Positions 5,172 through 18,669 of a stretch of DNA of 64,000 bases are shown piece by piece. Every line of letters begins with the position of its first letter. The stretch's first letter is position 1. Both the position numbers and the translations under genes were made by a program. Source of the stretch: Flavihumibacter cheonanensis (GTDB lineage Bacteria > Bacteroidota > Bacteroidia > Chitinophagales > Chitinophagaceae); the NCBI RefSeq assembly GCF_022352215.1, contig NZ_JAKRWF010000001.1:806001-870000 (forward strand), written 5' to 3'. The notes beneath the pieces were generated by a model. That model was not told the DNA's origin. It searched no databases and was given only the letters and a program-made list of their open reading frames with translations.

Positions 5172-7295
5172 ATGTCAATACTTAAATACCTGAGCTGTAT
5201 TCTGGCGGGATATCTTTTTGTAATAGCAGGATACGCTACACCCATACGAATTGCCTGCGTTGGTAATAGTATAACCTACGGTTCCGGAGTCGTGAACAGG
5301 GAGAAAAATAGTTATCCAGCTCAGCTCCAATCCATGCTTGGTGCAGACTATATTGTCCGGAATTTTGGCCTGGGTGGAACTACCCTGTTAAAAAATGGCA
5401 ATAAACCGTATTGGTCAAGTGCGCAAATTCAGCAATCACTGGAGTTTCAACCGGATATTGTTTTCATCAAATTGGGAACAAATGACAGTAAGTCGGTCAA
5501 CCGGCCTTTTTTAAAAGAACTTAATAAAGACCTGCACGCACTGATTAAACAATACCAGGATTTAGCATCGCATCCACGAATAGTATTGCTGCTTCCCCTG
5601 CCTTCCTTTTCTTCGGATAGTATGGGTATTTATGATCCGGTGATTGTACAGCAAATACATCCGGGAATTCAACAGGTAGCTTTGGAATCGGGCGTTGAGC
5701 TGGTTGATTTTTATCAGTTGTTCATCGATCAGCCCAACTTACTACCGGACAAAATTCATCCGAATTCATTAGGGGCAACGGTACTGGCGAAACGATTGTA
5801 TGAGGTGGTGAAATTCAAAGAAGAGGAAACTCCGGATTGGAAGCAATTCTCTTTTCTTACTGCAACTCCCTCGAATTTCTATGGCTACAGCCAGTTGAAC
5901 GGGGTGTTTAAAGGCAGAAACATCCATGTAGTGGTGCCTAAGAAAACTGCTATCGGTCGACCCTGGGTCTGGAGAGCACGGTTTTGGGGGCATGAACCCC
6001 AACTTGACCGGGCACTGCTGGAAAGAGGATTTCATATCGTTTATTGTGATGTGGCTGAATTATTTGGAAATGCCAGAGCGATCAGCATCTGGAATGATTT
6101 TTATACCGCCCTGCAAAAAATGGGAATGGCTCCCAAAGCAGTGCTGGAAGCGATGAGCAGGGGAGGCGTTTATGCCTACAATTGGGCATTACAGAACCAG
6201 GAAAAAGTGGCCTGTATTTATGCGGATGCGCCAGTACTCGATCTGAAAAGCTGGCCCGGAGGTTTGGGAAAAGGACCCGGGAACAAATCGGATTGGGAGC
6301 TTTTCAAGAAAGCGTATAATCTAACGGAAACCAATGCCCGAAAGTTTGCCCAATCGCCACTGGATAGGGCGGAACAGATTGCGTCCTTACGAATTCCTTT
6401 GATTCATGTGGTTGGCGAGCAAGACGAGCTTGTGCCACTAGATGAAAATACGGCACCATTTGAAGAACGGATTCGGGCTGCGGGAGGGCATATTTCCGTA
6501 ATTCGAAAACCGGGCATCAGGCATCATCCTCATAGCTTGCCAAACCCAACTCCCATATTAAATTTTATTCTTCGGGCCACGGGGAATAAAATCAATTTTG
6601 CTTCCCTATCTGCGCCTGGCAGTGAGTTCCGTTCTGCTGCCGGATGGAAAGAGGGAACTGATTGGTGGAAGCAACACGAGGATATTGATTCTATGCTGAA
6701 AGCTGGAGCAGGCGCAGATATTGTATTGCTTGGCAATTCCATAACCCAGGGAATTGGAGGCAATCGCCCGAATGTGACCCATAAGCCTGGTAGACCTGCT
6801 TTTGATTCTCTGTTTACCCGTTATCGTTGGATGTCTGCAGGAATCAGCGGAGACCGGACCCAGCATATCTTGTGGCGTTTGCAGAACAGTGGATTTATTC
6901 AAGCCAATCCAAAGTTGATTGTACTGACTATTGGGGTAAATAATATGCCCGATGACAGTCCGGAAGAAATTGTTGCTGGTATTAAAGCCTGCTACAACTG
7001 GATTCAGACCAACTTACCCAATACCCGGTTGATCCTGATCGGGCCTTTGCCGGCAGGAATGGAAAAAAATGAGTTCAGGCGACAGCAATATGAAAGCATT
7101 CATCTCCTGCTGGAAAACCAACCTATGGAGGGGATTCGCTATCTGCCGCTACATCAAATTTTCTTTACCAGTACAGGAGAACTGGATACGCGGTTTTATT
7201 CCAGGGATGGAGTTCATTTGGTGGAAGGCGGTTATGCTCAATGGGCTAAAGCGCTATTTCCTGTGATTCAGGAAGAATTAAGCAACGGCAACTAA
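5172..7295 (+). CDS. Three-domain secreted hydrolase: SGNH - alpha/beta hydrolase - SGNH
   Basis: This 707-residue protein carries a signal peptide (cleavage near GYATP). It contains three hydrolase modules. Residues about 25-215 form an SGNH/GDSL esterase with block I GNSIT (nucleophile Ser33), GTNDS and a terminal D-x-I-H block (DKIHPNS). Residues about 225-475 form an alpha/beta hydrolase with the nucleophile elbow AMSRGG (Ser329) and a late His in GIRHHPH. Residues about 485-700 form a second SGNH domain with GNSIT (Ser523), GVNN and RDGVH. Both SGNH domains retain their catalytic residues by eye. Deacetylation or de-esterification of polysaccharide would fit the neighbouring glycosidase-like gene, but that is inference. 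The stop codon directly abuts the convergent CAP gene. Confidence 0.85.
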   Translation: MSILKYLSCILAGYLFVIAGYATPIRIACVGNSITYGSGVVNREKNSYPAQLQSMLGADYIVRNFGLGGTTLLKNGNKPYWSSAQIQQSLEFQPDIVFIKLGTNDSKSVNRPFLKELNKDLHALIKQYQDLASHPRIVLLLPLPSFSSDSMGIYDPVIVQQIHPGIQQVALESGVELVDFYQLFIDQPNLLPDKIHPNSLGATVLAKRLYEVVKFKEEETPDWKQFSFLTATPSNFYGYSQLNGVFKGRNIHVVVPKKTAIGRPWVWRARFWGHEPQLDRALLERGFHIVYCDVAELFGNARAISIWNDFYTALQKMGMAPKAVLEAMSRGGVYAYNWALQNQEKVACIYADAPVLDLKSWPGGLGKGPGNKSDWELFKKAYNLTETNARKFAQSPLDRAEQIASLRIPLIHVVGEQDELVPLDENTAPFEERIRAAGGHISVIRKPGIRHHPHSLPNPTPILNFILRATGNKINFASLSAPGSEFRSAAGWKEGTDWWKQHEDIDSMLKAGAGADIVLLGNSITQGIGGNRPNVTHKPGRPAFDSLFTRYRWMSAGISGDRTQHILWRLQNSGFIQANPKLIVLTIGVNNMPDDSPEEIVAGIKACYNWIQTNLPNTRLILIGPLPAGMEKNEFRRQQYESIHLLLENQPMEGIRYLPLHQIFFTSTGELDTRFYSRDGVHLVEGGYAQWAKALFPVIQEELSNGN

Positions 7296-9936: not shown

Positions 9937-9968
9937 ATGGAAAGCGGTTTTCAGGAAAAAAAATGTTC

Positions 9969-9976
9969 TATATTTG
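9969..9976 (+). promoter_or_regulatory. Promoter -7 element of the marR-hut operon
   Basis: TATATTTG matches TAnnTTTG exactly. Transcription from it should begin near 9981-9984. That lies downstream of the ATG at 9963, so that ATG cannot be the start codon on this transcript. Confidence 0.6.
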
Positions 9977-9995
9977 TATAAGCGCTTATATAAAT
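9972..9995. promoter_or_regulatory. Candidate operator: 24-bp palindrome over the hut promoter start site
   Basis: The core TATAAGCGCTTATA (9977-9990) is a perfect 14-bp palindrome. After one mismatched pair it continues for four more matched bases on each side (ATTT and AAAT). It overlaps the -7 element and the expected transcription start. MarR dimers bind sites of this size and symmetry, so this is the probable site for autorepression by the first gene of the operon. Confidence 0.6.
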
Positions 9996-10010
9996 TTAAA
10001 CTACGATCGC

Positions 10011-10493
10011 TTGAGCTTCTATCAACAAACCGGTGTACTCTTCTTTGGCAGCCGTTTGCGACGGATCAGTGAATCATTCCTCGCTGATGTGAATGCAGTG
10101 TATAAAAAACACCAGATCCACTTCGATGCTGCGTGGTTTCCGGTATTTTATATGCTATCGCAAAAGGAAAGTCTCACTATCCGCGATATTTCCGAAGAGC
10201 TGGAAGTGTCTCACTCTGCTGCCAGCCAACTGATCAGTAAACTACAGGAAAAGGGACTTATTAAAACCAATGCCGACAAAGAAGATGGCCGGAAAAAAGT
10301 GGTGAGTTTCACACCCAAAGGGCAAAAACTGCTGAAGCAGGTGGAACCCGTATGGACGGCCCTGCAAACTGCGATGGAAGAACTGTTGCAGCAAGCTGAG
10401 TATACTGCCCACCTCATGGAGGCTATTTCACAAACTGAAACAGCCCTCCGGGAGCAATCTATTTTTAACCGAATCGAAAAACATCTGGCATGA
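10011..10493 (+). CDS. MarR family transcriptional regulator, probable hut repressor
   Basis: This is a winged-helix MarR protein. The helix-turn-helix is at SLTIRDISEELEVSHSAASQLISKL and the wing at KEDGRKKVVSFTPKG. The longest frame opens at the ATG at 9963, but that ATG lies inside the promoter and operator. I therefore place the start at the TTG at 10011, giving MSFYQQTGVLFFGSRLRR and 161 residues; the 9963 start stays possible if another promoter exists. Its stop overlaps the hutH start by 4 bp (ATGA), indicating translational coupling and making it the likely regulator of the hut genes. The inducer could be urocanate or histidine, by analogy with other hut repressors. Confidence 0.8.
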   Translation: MSFYQQTGVLFFGSRLRRISESFLADVNAVYKKHQIHFDAAWFPVFYMLSQKESLTIRDISEELEVSHSAASQLISKLQEKGLIKTNADKEDGRKKVVSFTPKGQKLLKQVEPVWTALQTAMEELLQQAEYTAHLMEAISQTETALREQSIFNRIEKHLA

Positions 10494-12052
10494 ATAAACG
10501 CTTTCAATATGGAGTCGACCACCTGACCATTGCTATCGCTATGGGGATTGCCAACGGACAGATACAGGGGTACCTGGGACCGGAATCCATGCAGAAAATT
10601 CAGGCCAGCGCAGCCGCTGTTAATCAAATCGTTCAGGAGGGGCGCACTGTGTATGGGGTTAATACAGGTTTCGGCATCCTGGCCAATACGTCCATTTCAG
10701 AAGAAGACACCCGCACCCTGCAGTATAAAATTTTACAAAGTCACAGTGTGGGGGTAGGCAATCCCATCGCTCCGGAAATTGCCAAACTCATGCTGATCAC
10801 CAAAGTACATGCCCTGGCTAAAGGTTTTTCCGGTGTGCAGCTACCAACCCTGGAACGACTCTGCTGGATGATTGATAACGATATTATTCCCATTGTACCG
10901 GAAAAAGGTAGCGTTGGTGCCAGTGGCGACCTTGCCCCCTTATCCCATCTTTGCCTGCCGCTTATCGGATTGGGTGAACTAACTGTGAGGGGTAAACGCC
11001 GAACTGCTGCGGATGTGCTGATTGAATATAACCTGGAACCGGTTCAGCTGGGACCAAAAGAAGGTCTGGCACTAATTAATGGCACCCAGTTTATTCTGGC
11101 CCATGCTGTAAAAGCAGTAGAACGATTTCAAAACAGCCTCGATGCCGCTGATATTATTGGTGCCATGAGTCTTGAATCACTTACCGGTACAAAAGCACCT
11201 TTTGAAGCAGCCCTTCATAAGTTGAGGCCCTTTGCAGGAAATCAGTATGTAGCGCATCGCCTACGCTTGTTGTTAAAGGATTCTGACATTATGGATAGCC
11301 ATATTGATTGCGGTCGGGTGCAGGATCCTTATTCCCTGCGTTGTATGCCCCAGGTGCATGGAGCCTCCCGCAATGCCTGGCTGCACCTGAAAGAATTGAC
11401 GGAAATTGAACTGAATGCCGTAACGGATAACCCCATCGTGCTGGATGCCAACCATACCATCAGTGGTGGTAATTTCCACGGACAACCGCTTGCACTTCCC
11501 CTGGATTACAACTGCTTTGCTGCTGCGGAAATTGGTAATATGTCAGATCGCAGGTGTTATCTGTTGCTGGAAGGGAAATGGGGTTTACCTATGTTGTTGA
11601 TGAACAACGTGGGACTGAACAGCGGCTTTATGATTCCTCAATACACCACTGCCGCCCTTGTTACGGAAAACAAAACCCTCTGTTTTCCGGCCAGTGCCGA
11701 CAGTATTCCCACTTCACTGGGACAGGAAGACCATGTGAGCATGGGTAGCATCAGCGGTCGCAAGCTCAACCAGGTGATCGATAACCTGGAAACGATTCTG
11801 TCCATTGAACTCATGAGTGCCTGCCAGGCAATAGAATTCCGCAGGCCGCTGAAAAGCAGTCCGGTTCTGGAGTTTGCGCATGATTATGTACGTGAGTATG
11901 TAAGTTTTGCCTCAGAAGACCGGATTTTCGCCCGCGATATTCAACGTATAAATGAACTGATCCGGAATCAGTCGTTTGTAAAAGAAGTTCATCGGTTTGC
12001 AGAAAGCAGGGGTGTATCAATGACCGAAGGTTTCCCATCTTTCAACATTTAA
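10490..12052 (+). CDS. hutH: Histidine ammonia-lyase
   Basis: HutH deaminates L-histidine to urocanate and ammonia in the cytoplasm, the first step of histidine catabolism. The 520-residue protein has the Ala144-Ser145-Gly146 triad in [14 protein letters not shown], which cyclises to the MIO electrophile. It also has the N-terminal YGVNTGFG motif and the QDHVSMGS segment (read as [10 protein letters not shown]) typical of the family. Full length for the family (about 500-520). Overlaps marR by 4 bp and precedes hutU by 11 bp. Confidence 0.97.
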
Positions 12053-12063
12053 AACGTTCCATT

Positions 12064-13725
12064 ATGTCTATAGCTGCTCCAAAACGTTGTAAAGGCTGGC
12101 TCCAGGAAGCCGCCCTGCTGATGTTACTCAATAACCTGCATCCGGATGTTGCCGAACGCCCTGAAGAGCTGATTGTTTATGGAGGCCGTGGCAAAGCAGC
12201 CCGTAACCAGGAAGCACTGGACCTTATCATCAAAGCACTGGAACACCTGGAAAACGATGAATCTCTGCTAATCCAGAGCGGCAAGCCGGTTGCGATCCTG
12301 CAAACGCATGAAGATGCTTCCCGGGTATTGATATCCAACTCCCAACTGGTACCTAACTGGGCCACCTGGGAACATTTTGATGAACTTGAAAAAAAGGGCC
12401 TCATGATGTATGGCCAGATGACGGCGGGTTCCTGGATTTATATCGGTTCACAGGGGATCGTTCAGGGCACTTATGAAACCTATGCCGCGGTGGCAGCCAA
12501 ACATTTTGGAGGGAGTTTGAAAGGAACCCTTAACGTTACCGCCGGATTAGGTGGTATGGGAGGTGCACAACCGCTCGCTATTACTATGAATGAAGGTGTG
12601 GCTCTGATTGCAGAAGTGGAAGAATGGCGGATAGATAAGCGCCTGGAGACCCGTTATCTGGATTATAAAATAAAGGACCTGGATGCAGCCATCGACCGGG
12701 CCCTGGAAGCAAAGGCAAAAGGAGAAGCCCTTTCCATTGGTGTTCATGCCAATGCTGTTGATCTTCTTGCAAGATTACTTGAACGTAATGTAGTGCCAGA
12801 TACGTTGACAGATCAAACTTCGGCGCATGATCCATTGATTGGTTATATTCCGCATACTATTTCATTGGCCGAAGCCAATCAGCTTCGTCAATCCAACCCC
12901 GATGCCTACCTGAAGTTATCCTATGCCAGCATGCACCAGCATGTGGCTTATATGCTGGATTTACAAAAACATGGTGCCATCACCTTTGACTATGGCAATA
13001 ATATCCGTGCCAGGGCAAAAGAAGATGGGCTGGAAAATGCATTTGATTTCCCGGGATTTGTTCCTGCCTATATCAGGCCCCTTTTCTGTGAAGGAAAAGG
13101 ACCATTCCGCTGGGCTGCACTAAGTGGAGATCCGGCTGATATTGCAGTAACCGACCAGGTTATAGCGGATATGTTCCCGGAAAACGAATCATTACAGCGC
13201 TGGTTGAAACTGGCCAAAGAACGAATCGCTTTTCAGGGACTTCCGGCACGCATTTGCTGGCTGGGACAGGGAGAAAGGGAGAAAGCCGGACTTGCTTTCA
13301 ATGAATTAGTTAGAACCGGAAAAGTAAAAGCTCCGATCGTGATTGGTCGTGATCACCTTGATACCGGTTCGGTAGCAAGCCCCAATCGTGAAACCGAAGC
13401 CATGCTGGATGGCTCCGATGCAGTGGCCGATTGGCCGATTCTGAATGCGCTCCTGAATACCGCAGGTGGAGCTTCCTGGGTCAGCCTGCACCATGGTGGT
13501 GGAGTAGGGATGGGGTATAGCATCCATGCGGGTATGGTAATTGTGGCGGATGGTACGGATGCTGCTGAGCGAAGACTGGCCCGTGTATTACGGAATGATC
13601 CAGGCATTGGTGTCATCCGGCATGCCGATGCGGGTTATGATATCGCCAAAGATGTGGCCCGAAAGCACCGGCTCGACCTGAAAGAAAAGCTTGCTATCTT
13701 CACGCCTTCCAAATCCTCGAAATGA
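12064..13725 (+). CDS. hutU: Urocanate hydratase
   Basis: HutU adds water to urocanate to give imidazolonepropionate, using tightly bound NAD+. The 553-residue product has the family hallmarks [10 protein letters not shown] near the N-terminus, [10 protein letters not shown] (NAD binding, about residues 162-171), the [13 protein letters not shown] stretch, and the C-terminal [13 protein letters not shown] motif. Length is normal. Its stop overlaps the start of the Mur-ligase-like gene by 4 bp (ATGA), so the two are very probably co-translated. Confidence 0.97.
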
Positions 13726-15098
13726 TTCAGACCATTAATGATTTTCAACGTGTCTTTTTTATAGGTGTAGCCGGTACAGGCATGAGTGCCATCGCGCAAT
13801 ACCTAAAGGGTATAGGTAAAGAAGTAGCGGGTTCCGATCGGTATTTCAAACCCGGTGAAAACAATGAAACCCGCACCCGTCTGGAAGCCGAAGGCATTCT
13901 CTGTTTTGAACAGGATGGCTCCGGAATTCTTCCTACCACTGACCTGGTGGTGGTTTCCACAGCAGTAGAGGACACCGTTGCTGAAGTGATCAAGGCAAAA
14001 TCACTGGATATTCCGATTATTCGTCGCAGTGAATTACTGGCAATAATCGCAAAAAGTAAAAAAACCATTGCCGTTGGTGGCACTTCCGGTAAGTCGACAA
14101 CCAGTGCCATGTTGTTTGATATCCTGCAATATGCGGGTCTCGAACCTAGTATCATAAGTGGCGCCGGCCTGGTTAGCATCATACGGGAAGGAAAGATCGG
14201 GAATGCAAAAGTCGGTAAAGGCGATTGGCTGGTAATCGAAGCGGATGAAAGTGATGGCTCCATTGTGCAATATTATCCATCCATAGGGCTGCTCTTAAAC
14301 GTAGACAAAGACCATAAAGAAATTGAATCCCTGCTGGACATCTTTGCTACGTTTAAACGTAACAGTGAGTTGTTTGTAGTGAATCAGTCGCACCCATTGG
14401 CTGCTCCCTTATCAAAGGATCTCAGCCTGGATTTCAGTTGGGATGCTGAGCGGACTGCCGGCTACATGGCACGTGATTTCAAACAGGAGGGACTCAGCAT
14501 ATCCTTCACAATCAACAATACTCCCTTTCAATTAAAGTTGGTTGGAAGACACAATATGGAGAATGCACTGGCTGCTGCTACGGTTGCAGCACATGTTGGT
14601 GTGGACCTGACAAAAGCTGCGGAAGCACTGGAACAATATGAAGGAATTTACAGGCGTAACCAGGTATTGGGACAAAAAAACGGCGTGTGGCTGATGGACG
14701 ATTATGCACATAACCCTGCTAAATGTGCGGCAAGTATCCGATCCTGCCAACCACTTGCGGATAAAGTCGTAGCCTGGTTCCAGCCTCATGGGTATGGCCC
14801 CACTCGTTTTCTGCGTGCAGATTTTGTAAAAGAAATTGCAGAAGCACTGCGTCCACAGGATGAGATTTGGATGAGTGAGATCTTTTATGCTGGAGGAACT
14901 GCTACCAAAGATATTACAGCGAATGACCTAATCAATGATATCCGGCAACTGGGTAAAGCAGCTTTTTTTGTGGAAAACAGAAATGATTTTGTGCATACTG
15001 TACGGTCACACTTAACCGAAAATACGGTTCTGTTGTTAATGGGCGCTCGTGATCCCAGTCTCGAATATTTTGCTCAGCAGGTTTGGAATGAATTATAA
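13722..15098 (+). CDS. MurC-like Mur ligase family protein within the hut operon
   Basis: A 458-residue ATP-dependent amide ligase homologue with the three Mur domains. A Rossmann-like N-terminal domain carries [11 protein letters not shown] (residues 15-25). The central ATPase has P-loop GGTSGKST (119-126), an EADESDGS segment (173-180) and NVDKDH (193-198). The C-terminal domain has [11 protein letters not shown] and DDYAHNPAK. It resembles MurC, but the P-loop reads GTSGKST where MurC and Mpl have GTHGKT, and [15 protein letters not shown] replaces the short MurC loop. It overlaps hutU by 4 bp and hutI starts 2 bp after it, so it belongs to the histidine operon. Ordinary MurC would be expected in a cell-division cluster, so this is probably a paralogue with another substrate. 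The substrate is unknown. Confidence 0.85.
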
Positions 15099-15099
15099 A

Positions 15100-16335
15100 A
15101 TGCGAATACTGTTTCGTCATATCAAGTCATTAGTGGGCATTGGTCAACCGGAAGCGCCGCTACGGGGTGATGAACTTGCCATGCTTCCATCCCTTGAAAA
15201 TGCCTGGTTGCTTATTGAAGACGAATACATTCATAGTTACGGTAAGGAAGTAGAGCAGGCACCTCCGGCAGCGGATCGGATACTTAATTGCTCCAATCGG
15301 TTTATCCTGCCTTCGTTTTGTGATTCGCATACGCACCTGGTGTTTGCCGGTAGCCGGGAAGCTGAATTTGTAGATAAAATCAATGGAAAAACCTATGCTG
15401 AGATAGCCGCAAAAGGTGGCGGAATTCATGCATCCGCAGGCAAGTTGGCAGCCATGCCGGAAGAACAGCTGTTTCGGGAGTCGATGATAAAACTGGATAA
15501 AATCGCAGCAGCCGGAACAGGGGCAATTGAAATTAAAAGCGGATATGGGTTAACGGTAGATGCTGAATTAAAAATGCTTCGGGTCATCAAACAATTGAAA
15601 GTTCATCACCGCCTGCCAATAAAAGCGACTTTTCTTGGAGCTCATGCAATTCCTCCGGAGTTCAAAGAGGATCGTGAAGCTTATATCCGGTTACTCATTA
15701 ACGATATATTGCCAGTGATCCGTGAGGAAAAGCTGGCAGATTATGTGGATGTTTTCTGTGAGAAAGGATTTTTCACACCGGAAGAAACCATCCGGATTTG
15801 CGAAGCAGGTAAAAGCATCGGACTTATTCCCAAGATACATGCCAACCAGTTAAACGTTTCAGGAGGGGTACAGGCAGGTATCCAAGTAGGAGCCCTGTCA
15901 GTGGATCATCTGGAATCAATGGATGAAGAAGCGATAACAGCTTTGGCTGCTTCTTCAACGATTGGTACCCTTCTGCCCGGTGCAGCCTATTTTCTCCGGA
16001 TGCCCTATCCTCCGGCGCGTGAATTGCTGAATGCCGGTGCAGCCCTAGCCCTTGCCTCAGATTATAACCCGGGCTCATCACCTTCCTTCAATATGCAGCA
16101 GGTTTTCTCAATGGCCTGTATCCAGCTTCGCATGTTGCCCGAAGAAGCATTGCAGGCAACTACCATCAATGGCGCATTTGCCATGCAAATGGAAAAGCAA
16201 GCCGGCTCAATTTACCCTGGAAAATGGGCGAATCTGTTGCTCACCCGAACCATACCTTCCCTTGCATATTTGCCCTATGCTTTTGGTGAATCCTGCATCG
16301 ACCAGGTTTATCTGAAAGGCAGCCCGATAAAATAA
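15100..16335 (+). CDS. hutI: Imidazolonepropionase
   Basis: HutI is the metal-dependent amidohydrolase that opens the ring of imidazolonepropionate to N-formimidoyl-glutamate. The metal site FCDSHTHLVFAG (about residues 71-82), the EIKSGYGL loop, the HANQLN His, SVDHLESMD and ASDYNPG motifs are all present. The chosen ATG at 15100 lies 2 bp after the ligase stop and gives 412 residues, the family's usual size. An in-frame ATG at 15088 overlaps the preceding gene and would add four residues. Confidence 0.95.
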   Translation: MRILFRHIKSLVGIGQPEAPLRGDELAMLPSLENAWLLIEDEYIHSYGKEVEQAPPAADRILNCSNRFILPSFCDSHTHLVFAGSREAEFVDKINGKTYAEIAAKGGGIHASAGKLAAMPEEQLFRESMIKLDKIAAAGTGAIEIKSGYGLTVDAELKMLRVIKQLKVHHRLPIKATFLGAHAIPPEFKEDREAYIRLLINDILPVIREEKLADYVDVFCEKGFFTPEETIRICEAGKSIGLIPKIHANQLNVSGGVQAGIQVGALSVDHLESMDEEAITALAASSTIGTLLPGAAYFLRMPYPPARELLNAGAALALASDYNPGSSPSFNMQQVFSMACIQLRMLPEEALQATTINGAFAMQMEKQAGSIYPGKWANLLLTRTIPSLAYLPYAFGESCIDQVYLKGSPIK

Positions 16336-16362: not shown

Positions 16363-17595
16363 ATGGAATCCATTCAATCCGAATTATTATTGATCGTTCT
16401 GTGTTGTGTGGTTGTGGTATCATACCTTTTTTCAATAGGTAGCCGCTATATAAGAGTACCATCTGTACTTTTATTATTGTTGGCTGGTATGGGTATCCGA
16501 CTGATTGCAGAGGCCTATGAATATGAATTAAATGTACCTCTTCTGGTAGTGGAATCTTTGGGAGTGGTGGGACTTATCATGATCGTACTTGAAGCAGGTC
16601 TGGATCTGGAACTTAAATCCTCGCGAATCAAACTAATTCGCGATTCTTTTCTTTCGGCTTTGATTATACTTCTCTTATCTACCTCACTTATAAGTTATAT
16701 ATTATACGAATACCTTCAACAACCTCTTTTGAACTGTATCGTATATGCAATACCGTTATCTATTATCAGCAGTTCCATTGTGTTACCCAGCCTGCATGCC
16801 CTGACAGAAGAAAAAAAGGATTTCCTCGTATATGAAGCCTCCTTTTCGGATATCCTGGGTATCATGTTGTTCAATTATTTCGCATCTCCGGAGATCTTTT
16901 CCCTAAAATCAATTGGTGTTTTCTCAGGGAACCTGCTGCTTAGTATTCTCTTATCCGGACTGGTATCCATCCTGCTTTTGTTCATTATGACCCGCACCAA
17001 ACTGTCCATAAAATTTTTCCTGGTTTTCTCACTTTTAGTATTGATCTACGCGGGGGGGAAAATGTTGCACCTGCCTTCGCTGATAATTATCCTTGCATTT
17101 GGTCTTATGATCAACAACTGGCACCTGTTTAAATCAGTTCCCTGGATCCAGCAACAGTTTCCTCAGGAACAGGTGAATAATTTAAACCAGTTACTTCATT
17201 CCATTACGGCTGAGTCCTCCTTTTTAATACGTACTTTCTTTTTCATCCTGTTTGGTTTTTCCATTGACTTCAATATGATGCTGCAGAACGAAGTAATGCA
17301 GGTAGGAGGGGTAATCGTTCTTAGTCTCTTTGCCGTCCGCTTTCTGTATTTCCGCTTTTTTCTCAAGACCAATGTATTCCCGGAAGTTTTTTTCATTCCG
17401 CGTGGACTCATAACAATTGTACTATTTTATAAGATTCCCCAGGAAATGAAACTTGCCAATTTCAATGAAGGGATACTTTTTTTTATTATTCTGGTTACTG
17501 GAGCGATTATGACCCTGGGTATGCTGTTTTACAAGAAAAAACCATCAGAATTGGTGGAAGAACCGGCTTTTTCAGATCGAACTGACATTTTTTAA
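16363..17595 (+). CDS. Cation:proton antiporter (CPA family) in the hut operon
   Basis: This 410-residue polytopic membrane protein has about 10-12 hydrophobic helices and resembles Na+/H+ exchanger (NhaP/CPA1-like) domains. The helix-5 region reads EASFSDILGIMLFNYF, so Ser-Asp stands where many members have Asn-Asp or Asp-Asp; at least one acidic exchange residue is kept. It sits between hutI (27 bp upstream) and hutG (12 bp downstream). A role in import of histidine or urocanate, or in pH balance during ammonia release, is only inference. Confidence 0.8.
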   Translation: MESIQSELLLIVLCCVVVVSYLFSIGSRYIRVPSVLLLLLAGMGIRLIAEAYEYELNVPLLVVESLGVVGLIMIVLEAGLDLELKSSRIKLIRDSFLSALIILLLSTSLISYILYEYLQQPLLNCIVYAIPLSIISSSIVLPSLHALTEEKKDFLVYEASFSDILGIMLFNYFASPEIFSLKSIGVFSGNLLLSILLSGLVSILLLFIMTRTKLSIKFFLVFSLLVLIYAGGKMLHLPSLIIILAFGLMINNWHLFKSVPWIQQQFPQEQVNNLNQLLHSITAESSFLIRTFFFILFGFSIDFNMMLQNEVMQVGGVIVLSLFAVRFLYFRFFLKTNVFPEVFFIPRGLITIVLFYKIPQEMKLANFNEGILFFIILVTGAIMTLGMLFYKKKPSELVEEPAFSDRTDIF

Positions 17596-17607: not shown

Positions 17608-18669
17608 ATGAATCATTTTAAATTTTATAACAAGGAAGATATCCTATATCTGACTCGCCTTCGAAGATTTGAAACCAAATTGGGGGAACGTTTGCAGGTA
17701 ATAACGCATCCCGATCAGTTTGAAGAAAAATTACATAAATGCCAGGCGAATTATATTCTGTTCGGCATACCGGAAGATATTGGTGTAAAGGCTAATTATG
17801 GCAAAGGTGGAACGGATTCCGCCTGGCTTCCTTTTCTCAGCAGTCTGCTGAATATGCAGAGTAATGATTTTCTATCGGGGGAAGAGATTCTTCTGTTGGG
17901 ACATTTTGATTTTGGTGATCTTCAATACCTCATAGAAAATCATGCCCGTTCAGAAGAAGAAAAAATTGAAGCATACCGGCATGCCGTAAACCAGATTGAT
18001 GAGGAAGTGGAGCAACTTGCTAAACAAATCACTGCAGCCGGAAAAATCCCGATTGCAATAGGGGGTGGTCACAACAATGCTTACCCGCTGATCAAAGGAG
18101 CAGCCAAAGGCCTGCTGAAATCTGGTCGCCTTCCGCTTGCCCAGATCAATGCCATCAACCTGGATGCACATACCGATTTTCGTCCCGCTGAAGGCCGTCA
18201 TTCCGGCAACGGTTTTCGTTATGCAGAGGAAGATGGCTATCTACAGAAATACTGCGTGATTGGAGTAAAAGAAGCTTATATACAACAGAATGTATGGTTG
18301 GATTTTGTCAACAATCCTTTCCTTGATCTGATTACATACGAAGATATTTTCCTGCAGGAAAAACGAAATTTCTTGCAGGCAGTGGCGCATGCAACCAACT
18401 TCCTGGACGAAAATTATTGCGGCATTGAACTCGACCTCGATGTAATTGAAGAAACACTTTCCAGTGCCTGCTCTGCCTCTGGTATTACCGTATTGCAAGC
18501 CAGGAAATACATTCAGTTTACGGCACAGGATCTTAAACCGGCCTATCTTCACATCTGCGAGGGCGCTGCCCAATTGAGCGATGGAAGAAAAAATGATACC
18601 ATTGGACAATTAATCGCCTACCTGGTTTCAGATTTTATAAAAGCAAGGCTGGACCTGAAAGCAATCTAG
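17608..18669 (+). CDS. hutG: Formimidoylglutamase (arginase/agmatinase superfamily)
   Basis: HutG hydrolyses N-formimidoyl-L-glutamate to glutamate and formamide, completing the direct histidine degradation route. The 353-residue protein keeps the binuclear manganese ligands of the ureohydrolase fold: GGGHNN (His), NLDAHTDFR (Asp-x-His-x-Asp), and ELDLD (two Asp). The Asn after His in GGGHNN differs from GGDH in arginases and fits the formimidoylglutamase-like branch of Bacteroidota. It is the last gene of the operon; its stop overlaps that of the convergent patatin gene by 4 bp, and no separate terminator is visible. Confidence 0.88.
   Translation: MNHFKFYNKEDILYLTRLRRFETKLGERLQVITHPDQFEEKLHKCQANYILFGIPEDIGVKANYGKGGTDSAWLPFLSSLLNMQSNDFLSGEEILLLGHFDFGDLQYLIENHARSEEEKIEAYRHAVNQIDEEVEQLAKQITAAGKIPIAIGGGHNNAYPLIKGAAKGLLKSGRLPLAQINAINLDAHTDFRPAEGRHSGNGFRYAEEDGYLQKYCVIGVKEAYIQQNVWLDFVNNPFLDLITYEDIFLQEKRNFLQAVAHATNFLDENYCGIELDLDVIEETLSSACSASGITVLQARKYIQFTAQDLKPAYLHICEGAAQLSDGRKNDTIGQLIAYLVSDFIKARLDLKAI

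Follow-up and report, generated by a model that had tools for sequence, protein, structure and literature searches.

A MurC-side Mur ligase from the hut cluster of Flavihumibacter cheonanensis that probably stands in for Mpl in part of the Chitinophagaceae

A 64,000-nucleotide stretch of the Flavihumibacter cheonanensis genome was analysed (the window; contig NZ_JAKRWF010000001.1, positions 806,001 to 870,000). Among its histidine-utilisation (hut) genes lies a MurC-like Mur ligase of 458 amino acids, named LIG here (13722..15098, + strand). LIG is probably a member of the MurC side of the Mur superfamily, an ATP-dependent ligase that stands in for Mpl in about 40% of the sampled Chitinophagaceae. 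Its role probably lies in wall recycling and not in histidine use. The proposed reaction, ligation of tripeptide to UDP-MurNAc, we infer only from the mutual exclusion between LIG and an Mpl-like ligase of the Bacteroidia.

In most of the Bacteroidia searched there is a Mur ligase that has the Mpl-type insert and whose clade is the sister of canonical Mpl (support 100/99). One example, scanned in full, reached 249.9 bits on the murC model and 205.2 bits on the mpl model, below both cut-offs, and was near the best of 20 scanned. A first survey with the public Mpl model (E 1e-50) matched 111 of 244 Chitinophagaceae genomes. It gave no clean separation of the Mpl-like ligase from MurC, and already hinted that the Mpl-like ligase was absent from LIG carriers. 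The survey was repeated with a family-specific profile of 20 Bacteroidia Mpl-like proteins (alignment A2), which found the Mpl-like ligase in 141 of the 244 genomes. Eleven further genomes, LIG carriers without exception, gave weak matches only (best E 1e-45 to 1e-50); these were taken as MurC and left out of this count. In the window's genome, the corresponding weak match was the sole one (154 bits) and sits at the MurC locus.

LIG was detected in 97 of the 244 genomes, with one match per genome. The two ligases excluded each other completely: 97 genomes had LIG only, 141 the Mpl-like ligase only, none had both and six had neither (Fisher p 1.7e-61, relatedness ignored). LIG without an Mpl-like gene was seen in 33 genera, and the reverse in 50. 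Three genera (g12, g230 and g237) hold genomes of each kind, none with both genes. Outside the Chitinophagaceae, the Mpl-like ligase occurred in 22 of 28 class members searched, and five of the 28 had neither ligase. The LIG carrier in another family (G281) has no Mpl-like gene, and two members of its family (G012 and G095) have one.

The place from which the Mpl-like gene disappeared can be recognized. All nine Chitinophagaceae Mpl-like loci that were read have the same gene order: the Mpl-like gene, then a DnaQ-like exonuclease gene (named from model matches below cut-offs), then a glycosyltransferase-like gene (named by eye). The exonuclease gene was sought in 13 genomes, ten of which were chosen LIG carriers (of 97). 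In all ten carriers the exonuclease gene and its next neighbour were kept, and the Mpl-like gene was gone. In the window's genome, a small gene now lies 263 bp from the exonuclease open reading frame (ORF); in five loci its counterparts, 45-62% identical to it, directly precede the Mpl-like gene. Within genus g230, the flanking DNA of the Mpl-like genome G443 and the LIG genome G576 matches at 82% before the gene and at 86% from just past it; between these flanks G443 has 1,536 bp, including the Mpl-like gene, versus 323 bp in G576. A search at E 0.1 in five gaps at the emptied locus found no Mpl-like remnant. A quick LIG tree places the G576 copy inside the LIGs of genus g242 (support 96) and the G450 copy inside those of g10 (support 99), so that by this tree both genomes appear to have acquired LIG from elsewhere. 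By the emptied loci and these two nested LIGs, acquiring LIG and losing the Mpl-like gene go together more than once.

In a survey of the phylum (392 genomes, E 1e-70 or better), a profile built from 28 LIG orthologues matched ten genomes, nine at 698-898 bits and the tenth, after a wide gap, at 238 bits. Eight of the nine strong carriers were Chitinophagaceae (of 15 sampled) and the ninth was G281, from another family of the class; the 244 genomes are a denser sample of the Chitinophagaceae. Among the best 80 of 290 related loci, the closest relative was 98% identical in the LIG protein. Mean column identity across the 28 aligned orthologues was 78%, so LIG is far from a chance ORF. All three Mur ligase Pfam domains scored above their gathering scores (PF01225 47.5, PF08245 40.7 and PF02875 48.3 bits). 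A plasmid search gave 74 records, all below 60% identity, with the ten listed at 30-32%.

Phylogeny was inferred from 79 rows, comprising 25 LIG, 20 Bacteroidia Mpl-like, 16 Mpl and 18 MurC sequences (only two of the MurC rows known to be from Chitinophagaceae; no CapB rows), and each of the four groups was monophyletic. The LIG clade had 100/100 support and a stem of 2.78 changes per column. The MurC rows formed one clade (97/87) with all LIG rows outside it. A split with 100/99 support placed LIG and MurC on one side, and the Mpl-like ligases and canonical Mpl on the other. The tree program warned of long-branch meeting (bMPL_L296 versus LIG and many more rows), which makes the deep joins less sure than their support, and the root side was checked in a rougher tree only, with a MurD outgroup and three bad rows included. 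By its tree position, LIG is a discrete family with its own clade beside MurC. The original prediction of a specialised paralogue apart from MurC and Mpl thereby held.

Residues were compared across the same 25 LIG, 18 MurC, 20 Mpl-like and 16 Mpl rows. The P-loop GTSGKST (residues 120-126, 14079..14099), the segment EADESD with the Mg/catalytic Glu (residues 173-178, 14238..14255) and the motif DDYAHNP (residues 326-332, 14697..14717), all on the + strand, were present as originally described. P-loop position 122 is Ser in 25/25 LIG rows, a residue unique to LIG, and His in 18/18 MurC, 20/20 Mpl-like and 16/16 Mpl rows. Nine residues were invariant in LIG: Lys124, Glu173, Glu176, His198, His277, Asn281, Arg312, Asp327 and His330. 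Adenine-site Asn193 is Asn in 21 rows and Ser in four. The P-loop Lys, the Mg Glu and His, the ribose Asp (Asp327) and the adenine-site His and Asn of the Mur superfamily are thus kept. In our own alignment, the invariant residues fall on slots that a Psychrobacter Mpl paper assigns to ATP, Mg and ribose (PMC3060825).

The same paper lists the contacts of Haemophilus MurC with L-Ala as His376, Arg377, Arg380, Tyr346 and His348 (PMC3060825), which were mapped via E. coli MurC by equal spacing. LIG keeps the Tyr slot (Tyr328 in the window; Tyr in 22 rows, Phe in three) and both His slots, His330 among them; the second His of DDYAHNP is Asn. The Arg377 slot says little, because it is Leu in 17 of 18 MurC rows. 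At the Arg380 slot, Arg is found in 18/18 MurC rows, Pro in 25/25 LIG rows (Pro360, in FQPHGYGPT, residues 353-361, 14778..14804, + strand), Ser in 20/20 Mpl-like rows and Thr, Ser or Met in the 16 Mpl rows; a small LIG insert nearby means that this alignment may shift by a residue or so. The Arg that holds free L-Ala in MurC, according to PMC3060825, is lost in LIG.

The most economical account would have a ligase from the MurC side come to accept peptides and displace the older Mpl-like ligase. Several observations speak against a stand-in for Mpl. On the Mpl model TIGR01081, LIG scored 124.7 bits against a cut-off of 388.7, and in the tree it groups with MurC and not with Mpl. The (S/T)AFFDKRSK insert, described in PMC3060825 as a conserved feature of 17 annotated Mpl that the other Mur ligases lack, was found in 16/16 Mpl and 20/20 Mpl-like rows and in 0/25 LIG rows; in LIG, EADESD is followed by no such insert. 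The gene order at the emptied locus is family-specific: in other families, the exonuclease gene adjoins the Mpl-like gene in 1/10 loci. The role shared by the two ligases is dispensable, since six family genomes and 5/28 other class members have neither; some bacteria, such as Caulobacter, live without Mpl according to PMC13046382, which fits these six genomes. Mutual exclusion could also stem from the two ligases harming each other. Of 93 Chitinophagaceae carriers read, representing 34 genera, 20 from 5 genera are hut-linked, with hutI or hutU no more than 5 kb from LIG. This is far above independent placement, and murein recycling does not account for it. Finally, in G496 (locus L212, 5786-8229 in ligase orientation) the neighbour of LIG is a HutG-like gene that shares 48% identity with that of the window.

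Because the two defining Mpl features, model score and insert, both fail, LIG was rejected as Mpl proper, and we propose that it has the role of an Mpl but belongs outside that family. With canonical Mpl (TIGR01081; E. coli, Psychrobacter) it shares this proposed role and the lack of an Arg at the MurC Arg380 slot, but it differs in the missing insert, the missing P-loop His and the opposite side of the tree. Judged by exclusion, it fills the same place as the Bacteroidia Mpl-like ligase (0/244 genomes with both), whereas that ligase belongs to another clade, sister to canonical Mpl, and has the P-loop His and the Mpl-type insert. No gene above the Mpl cut-off was found in the window's genome or in any of the 244 Chitinophagaceae genomes, and as all of these fail, the missing match in the window's genome says little.

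If LIG does replace Mpl, an undescribed Mur ligase family gains a concrete, testable role, and a MurC-side relative has taken over from a wall-recycling ligase on more than one occasion. This would be a natural experiment on the switch of a Mur ligase acceptor from a single amino acid to a peptide. It would also correct the annotation in about 40% of the sampled Chitinophagaceae (97/244), where the gene is easily misread as an additional murC or as a gene of histidine use. More tentatively, and with rather less confidence, murein peptide ligation may have arisen a second time, and separately, in LIG, a mobile MurC-side ligase that would have displaced Mpl on arrival, perhaps through a wider peptide range, and in some genera come to lie with hut genes, linking wall recycling and amino-acid catabolism.

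The assigned role passes through the Bacteroidia Mpl-like ligase, which by kinship would be a true Mpl. LIG might share a slot with this ligase and do another job than tripeptide recycling, for example with UDP-MurNAc and a different acceptor, be it an amino acid or a peptide. Such a job would be compatible with the lack of the insert in LIG and with the Mpl-like scores below both the murC and the mpl cut-offs; moreover, a partial literature search found no experimental work on the Mpl-like ligase. We consider it unlikely, as the Mpl-like clade and canonical Mpl are sisters and every Mpl-like row compared carries the Mpl-type insert. Within the limited literature collection used, nothing was found on Mur ligases in hut operons, Chitinophaga Mur ligases or Mpl in Bacteroidota, and a search of PMC7670621 for Mpl, tripeptide and MurC found none of these.

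The original prediction was that LIG might act in histidine metabolism, as a ligase joining histidine, glutamate or formimidoyl-glutamate to another acid. Its position in the window invites this. The ORF is complete, starts with ATG and overlaps the hutU stop by 4 bp, as had been stated. Its stop codon (15096-15098) and the hutI ATG at 15100 are separated by one base; the original description had hutI starting 2 bp after LIG. The mechanical hutI ORF opens upstream, at GTG 15049, and ATG 15100 was picked by us. LIG had also been called unambiguously part of the hut transcript; the spacing is indeed tight, and it is this spacing that suggests membership. Among the best 80 of 290 related loci, a selection that leans to close relatives, the locus sequence contains hutI in 30, hutG in 17, hutU in 12 and hutH in 10.

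Context was read in 93 of the 97 carriers; four with partial matches (G408, G451, G514 and G575) were omitted. The 20 linked cases consist of 13 of 86 fetched loci and seven genomes of the window's genus (G523 and six others, the window's own included), which were scored by hand from coordinates. In the quick LIG tree, hut linkage requires at least eight changes, two of which are forced by well-supported branches. Linkage thus recurs and is unlikely to be accidental, yet it is a minority state. None of the hut genes sought was found within 5 kb in 72 of the 93 carriers; among the 73 loci unlinked to hutI or hutU, one flank is shorter than 4 kb in 11, and a few links may have escaped notice there. 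Absence from other hut operons, which would have counted against the original prediction, was thus seen only in part, with LIG near hut genes in 5 of the 34 genera read.

Presence of LIG was independent of hutI: it occurred in 79 of 205 genomes with hutI and in 18 of 39 without a hutI match at E 1e-60 (Fisher p 0.38). For comparison, hutU was present in 207 of the 244 genomes. A ligase for histidine breakdown should not reside in genomes without the pathway, and the 18 carriers that have no hutI match at this threshold disfavour it. G496, despite its HutG-like neighbour, gave no match to hutI or hutU. The exclusion of the Mpl-like ligase is not predicted by a histidine role either. A histidine-pathway substrate was therefore rejected, and such a ligase is improbable in spite of the recurrent linkage. 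With LIG read as a replacement for Mpl, we regard its presence in the hut operon of this genus as secondary. Our guesses for how it came about are that amino-acid supply regulates LIG or that LIG simply hitch-hikes with an operon that is expressed.

Two observations concern the hut loci of relatives. In nine loci (L023, L051, L065, L071, L085, L088, L139, L191 and L192), a gene near hutI is, as we take it from its sequence, a probable glutamate formimidoyltransferase, which suggests a folate route for formimidoyl-glutamate in those relatives. In two loci of genus g185 (L286 and L287), an Mpl-like ligase lies about 6-8 kb from hut genes, perhaps by chance, an echo of the LIG placement.

LIG could also be a second L-alanine ligase, an extra MurC for other conditions. 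It is sister to MurC in the tree, murC is its top-scoring model (308.1 bits, 307.8 in the genome search), and it retains the Tyr slot of the L-Ala site along with two of the His slots there. In its three Mur domains, Gly-rich UDP loop, Asp39, Mg/ATP residues and lack of the Mpl insert, LIG resembles MurC (TIGR01082), its nearest clade. However, it has GTSGKS versus GTHGKT in MurC, a shortened loop after the Mg His and Pro in place of the Arg380 that all 18 MurC rows have. The score is under the equivalog cut-off of 335.1, LIG falls outside the MurC clade, and exclusion of Mpl would not be expected of an extra MurC. A canonical murC, which the original prediction proposed to look for, is present on another contig of the same genome (392.8 bits, above the cut-off), together with MurD-, MurE-, MurF- and FolC-like genes (named by eye from their sequences). 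Another LIG carrier (G017) likewise has a canonical MurC. LIG is, on these scores and this tree, not the housekeeping MurC, and was rejected as a second one; an L-alanine ligase is very doubtful.

It is highly improbable that incompatibility or shared ancestry alone, without a shared function, produced the exclusion: relatedness of the genomes makes the p-value overstate the evidence and most genera are of one kind (33 and 50), but exclusion is kept in three mixed genera and in a carrier from another family, the LIG of two of these nests inside other genera, and the Mpl-like gene is gone from a conserved locus in all ten carriers read.

The hut cluster of the window, all on the + strand, runs in the order MarR regulator, hutH, hutU, LIG, hutI, Na+/H+ exchanger family protein and HutG-like protein. 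At its head is a MarR-family regulator (9963..10493), assigned at family level only, as it scored below the curated cut-offs of named regulators. Histidine ammonia-lyase (hutH, 10490..12052), urocanate hydratase (hutU, 12064..13725) and imidazolonepropionase (hutI, 15100..16335) all scored above their NCBIfam cut-offs. Between hutI and the HutG-like gene lies the Na+/H+ exchanger family gene (16363..17595, domain match); similar genes adjoin hutI in L058, L073, L138 and L139. The last gene encodes an arginase-family HutG-like protein (17608..18669). Because it reached 63.4 bits against a hutG cut-off of 229.15, it could be a formimidoylglutamase that has diverged, or else a different enzyme of the arginase family.

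Other neighbours of LIG recur among its relatives. A major facilitator superfamily (MFS) gene, Tet(A)-like below cut-offs, is beside LIG in 15 of the best 80 loci (for example L020, L041, L051, L053 and L065); it is upstream in 13 loci, with a 4-bp overlap in five. It was considered as AmpG and rejected, since the best 25 of 51 matching models were efflux-type, Tet(A)-like first and below cut-off, and none was AmpG. An SH3/NlpC gene a few genes off in many loci lies in a conserved block whose genes are unrelated, and was given no weight. Elsewhere in the window, a 707-amino-acid ORF (5172-7295) appears by eye to have two SGNH-type hydrolase-like ends around another hydrolase-like middle.

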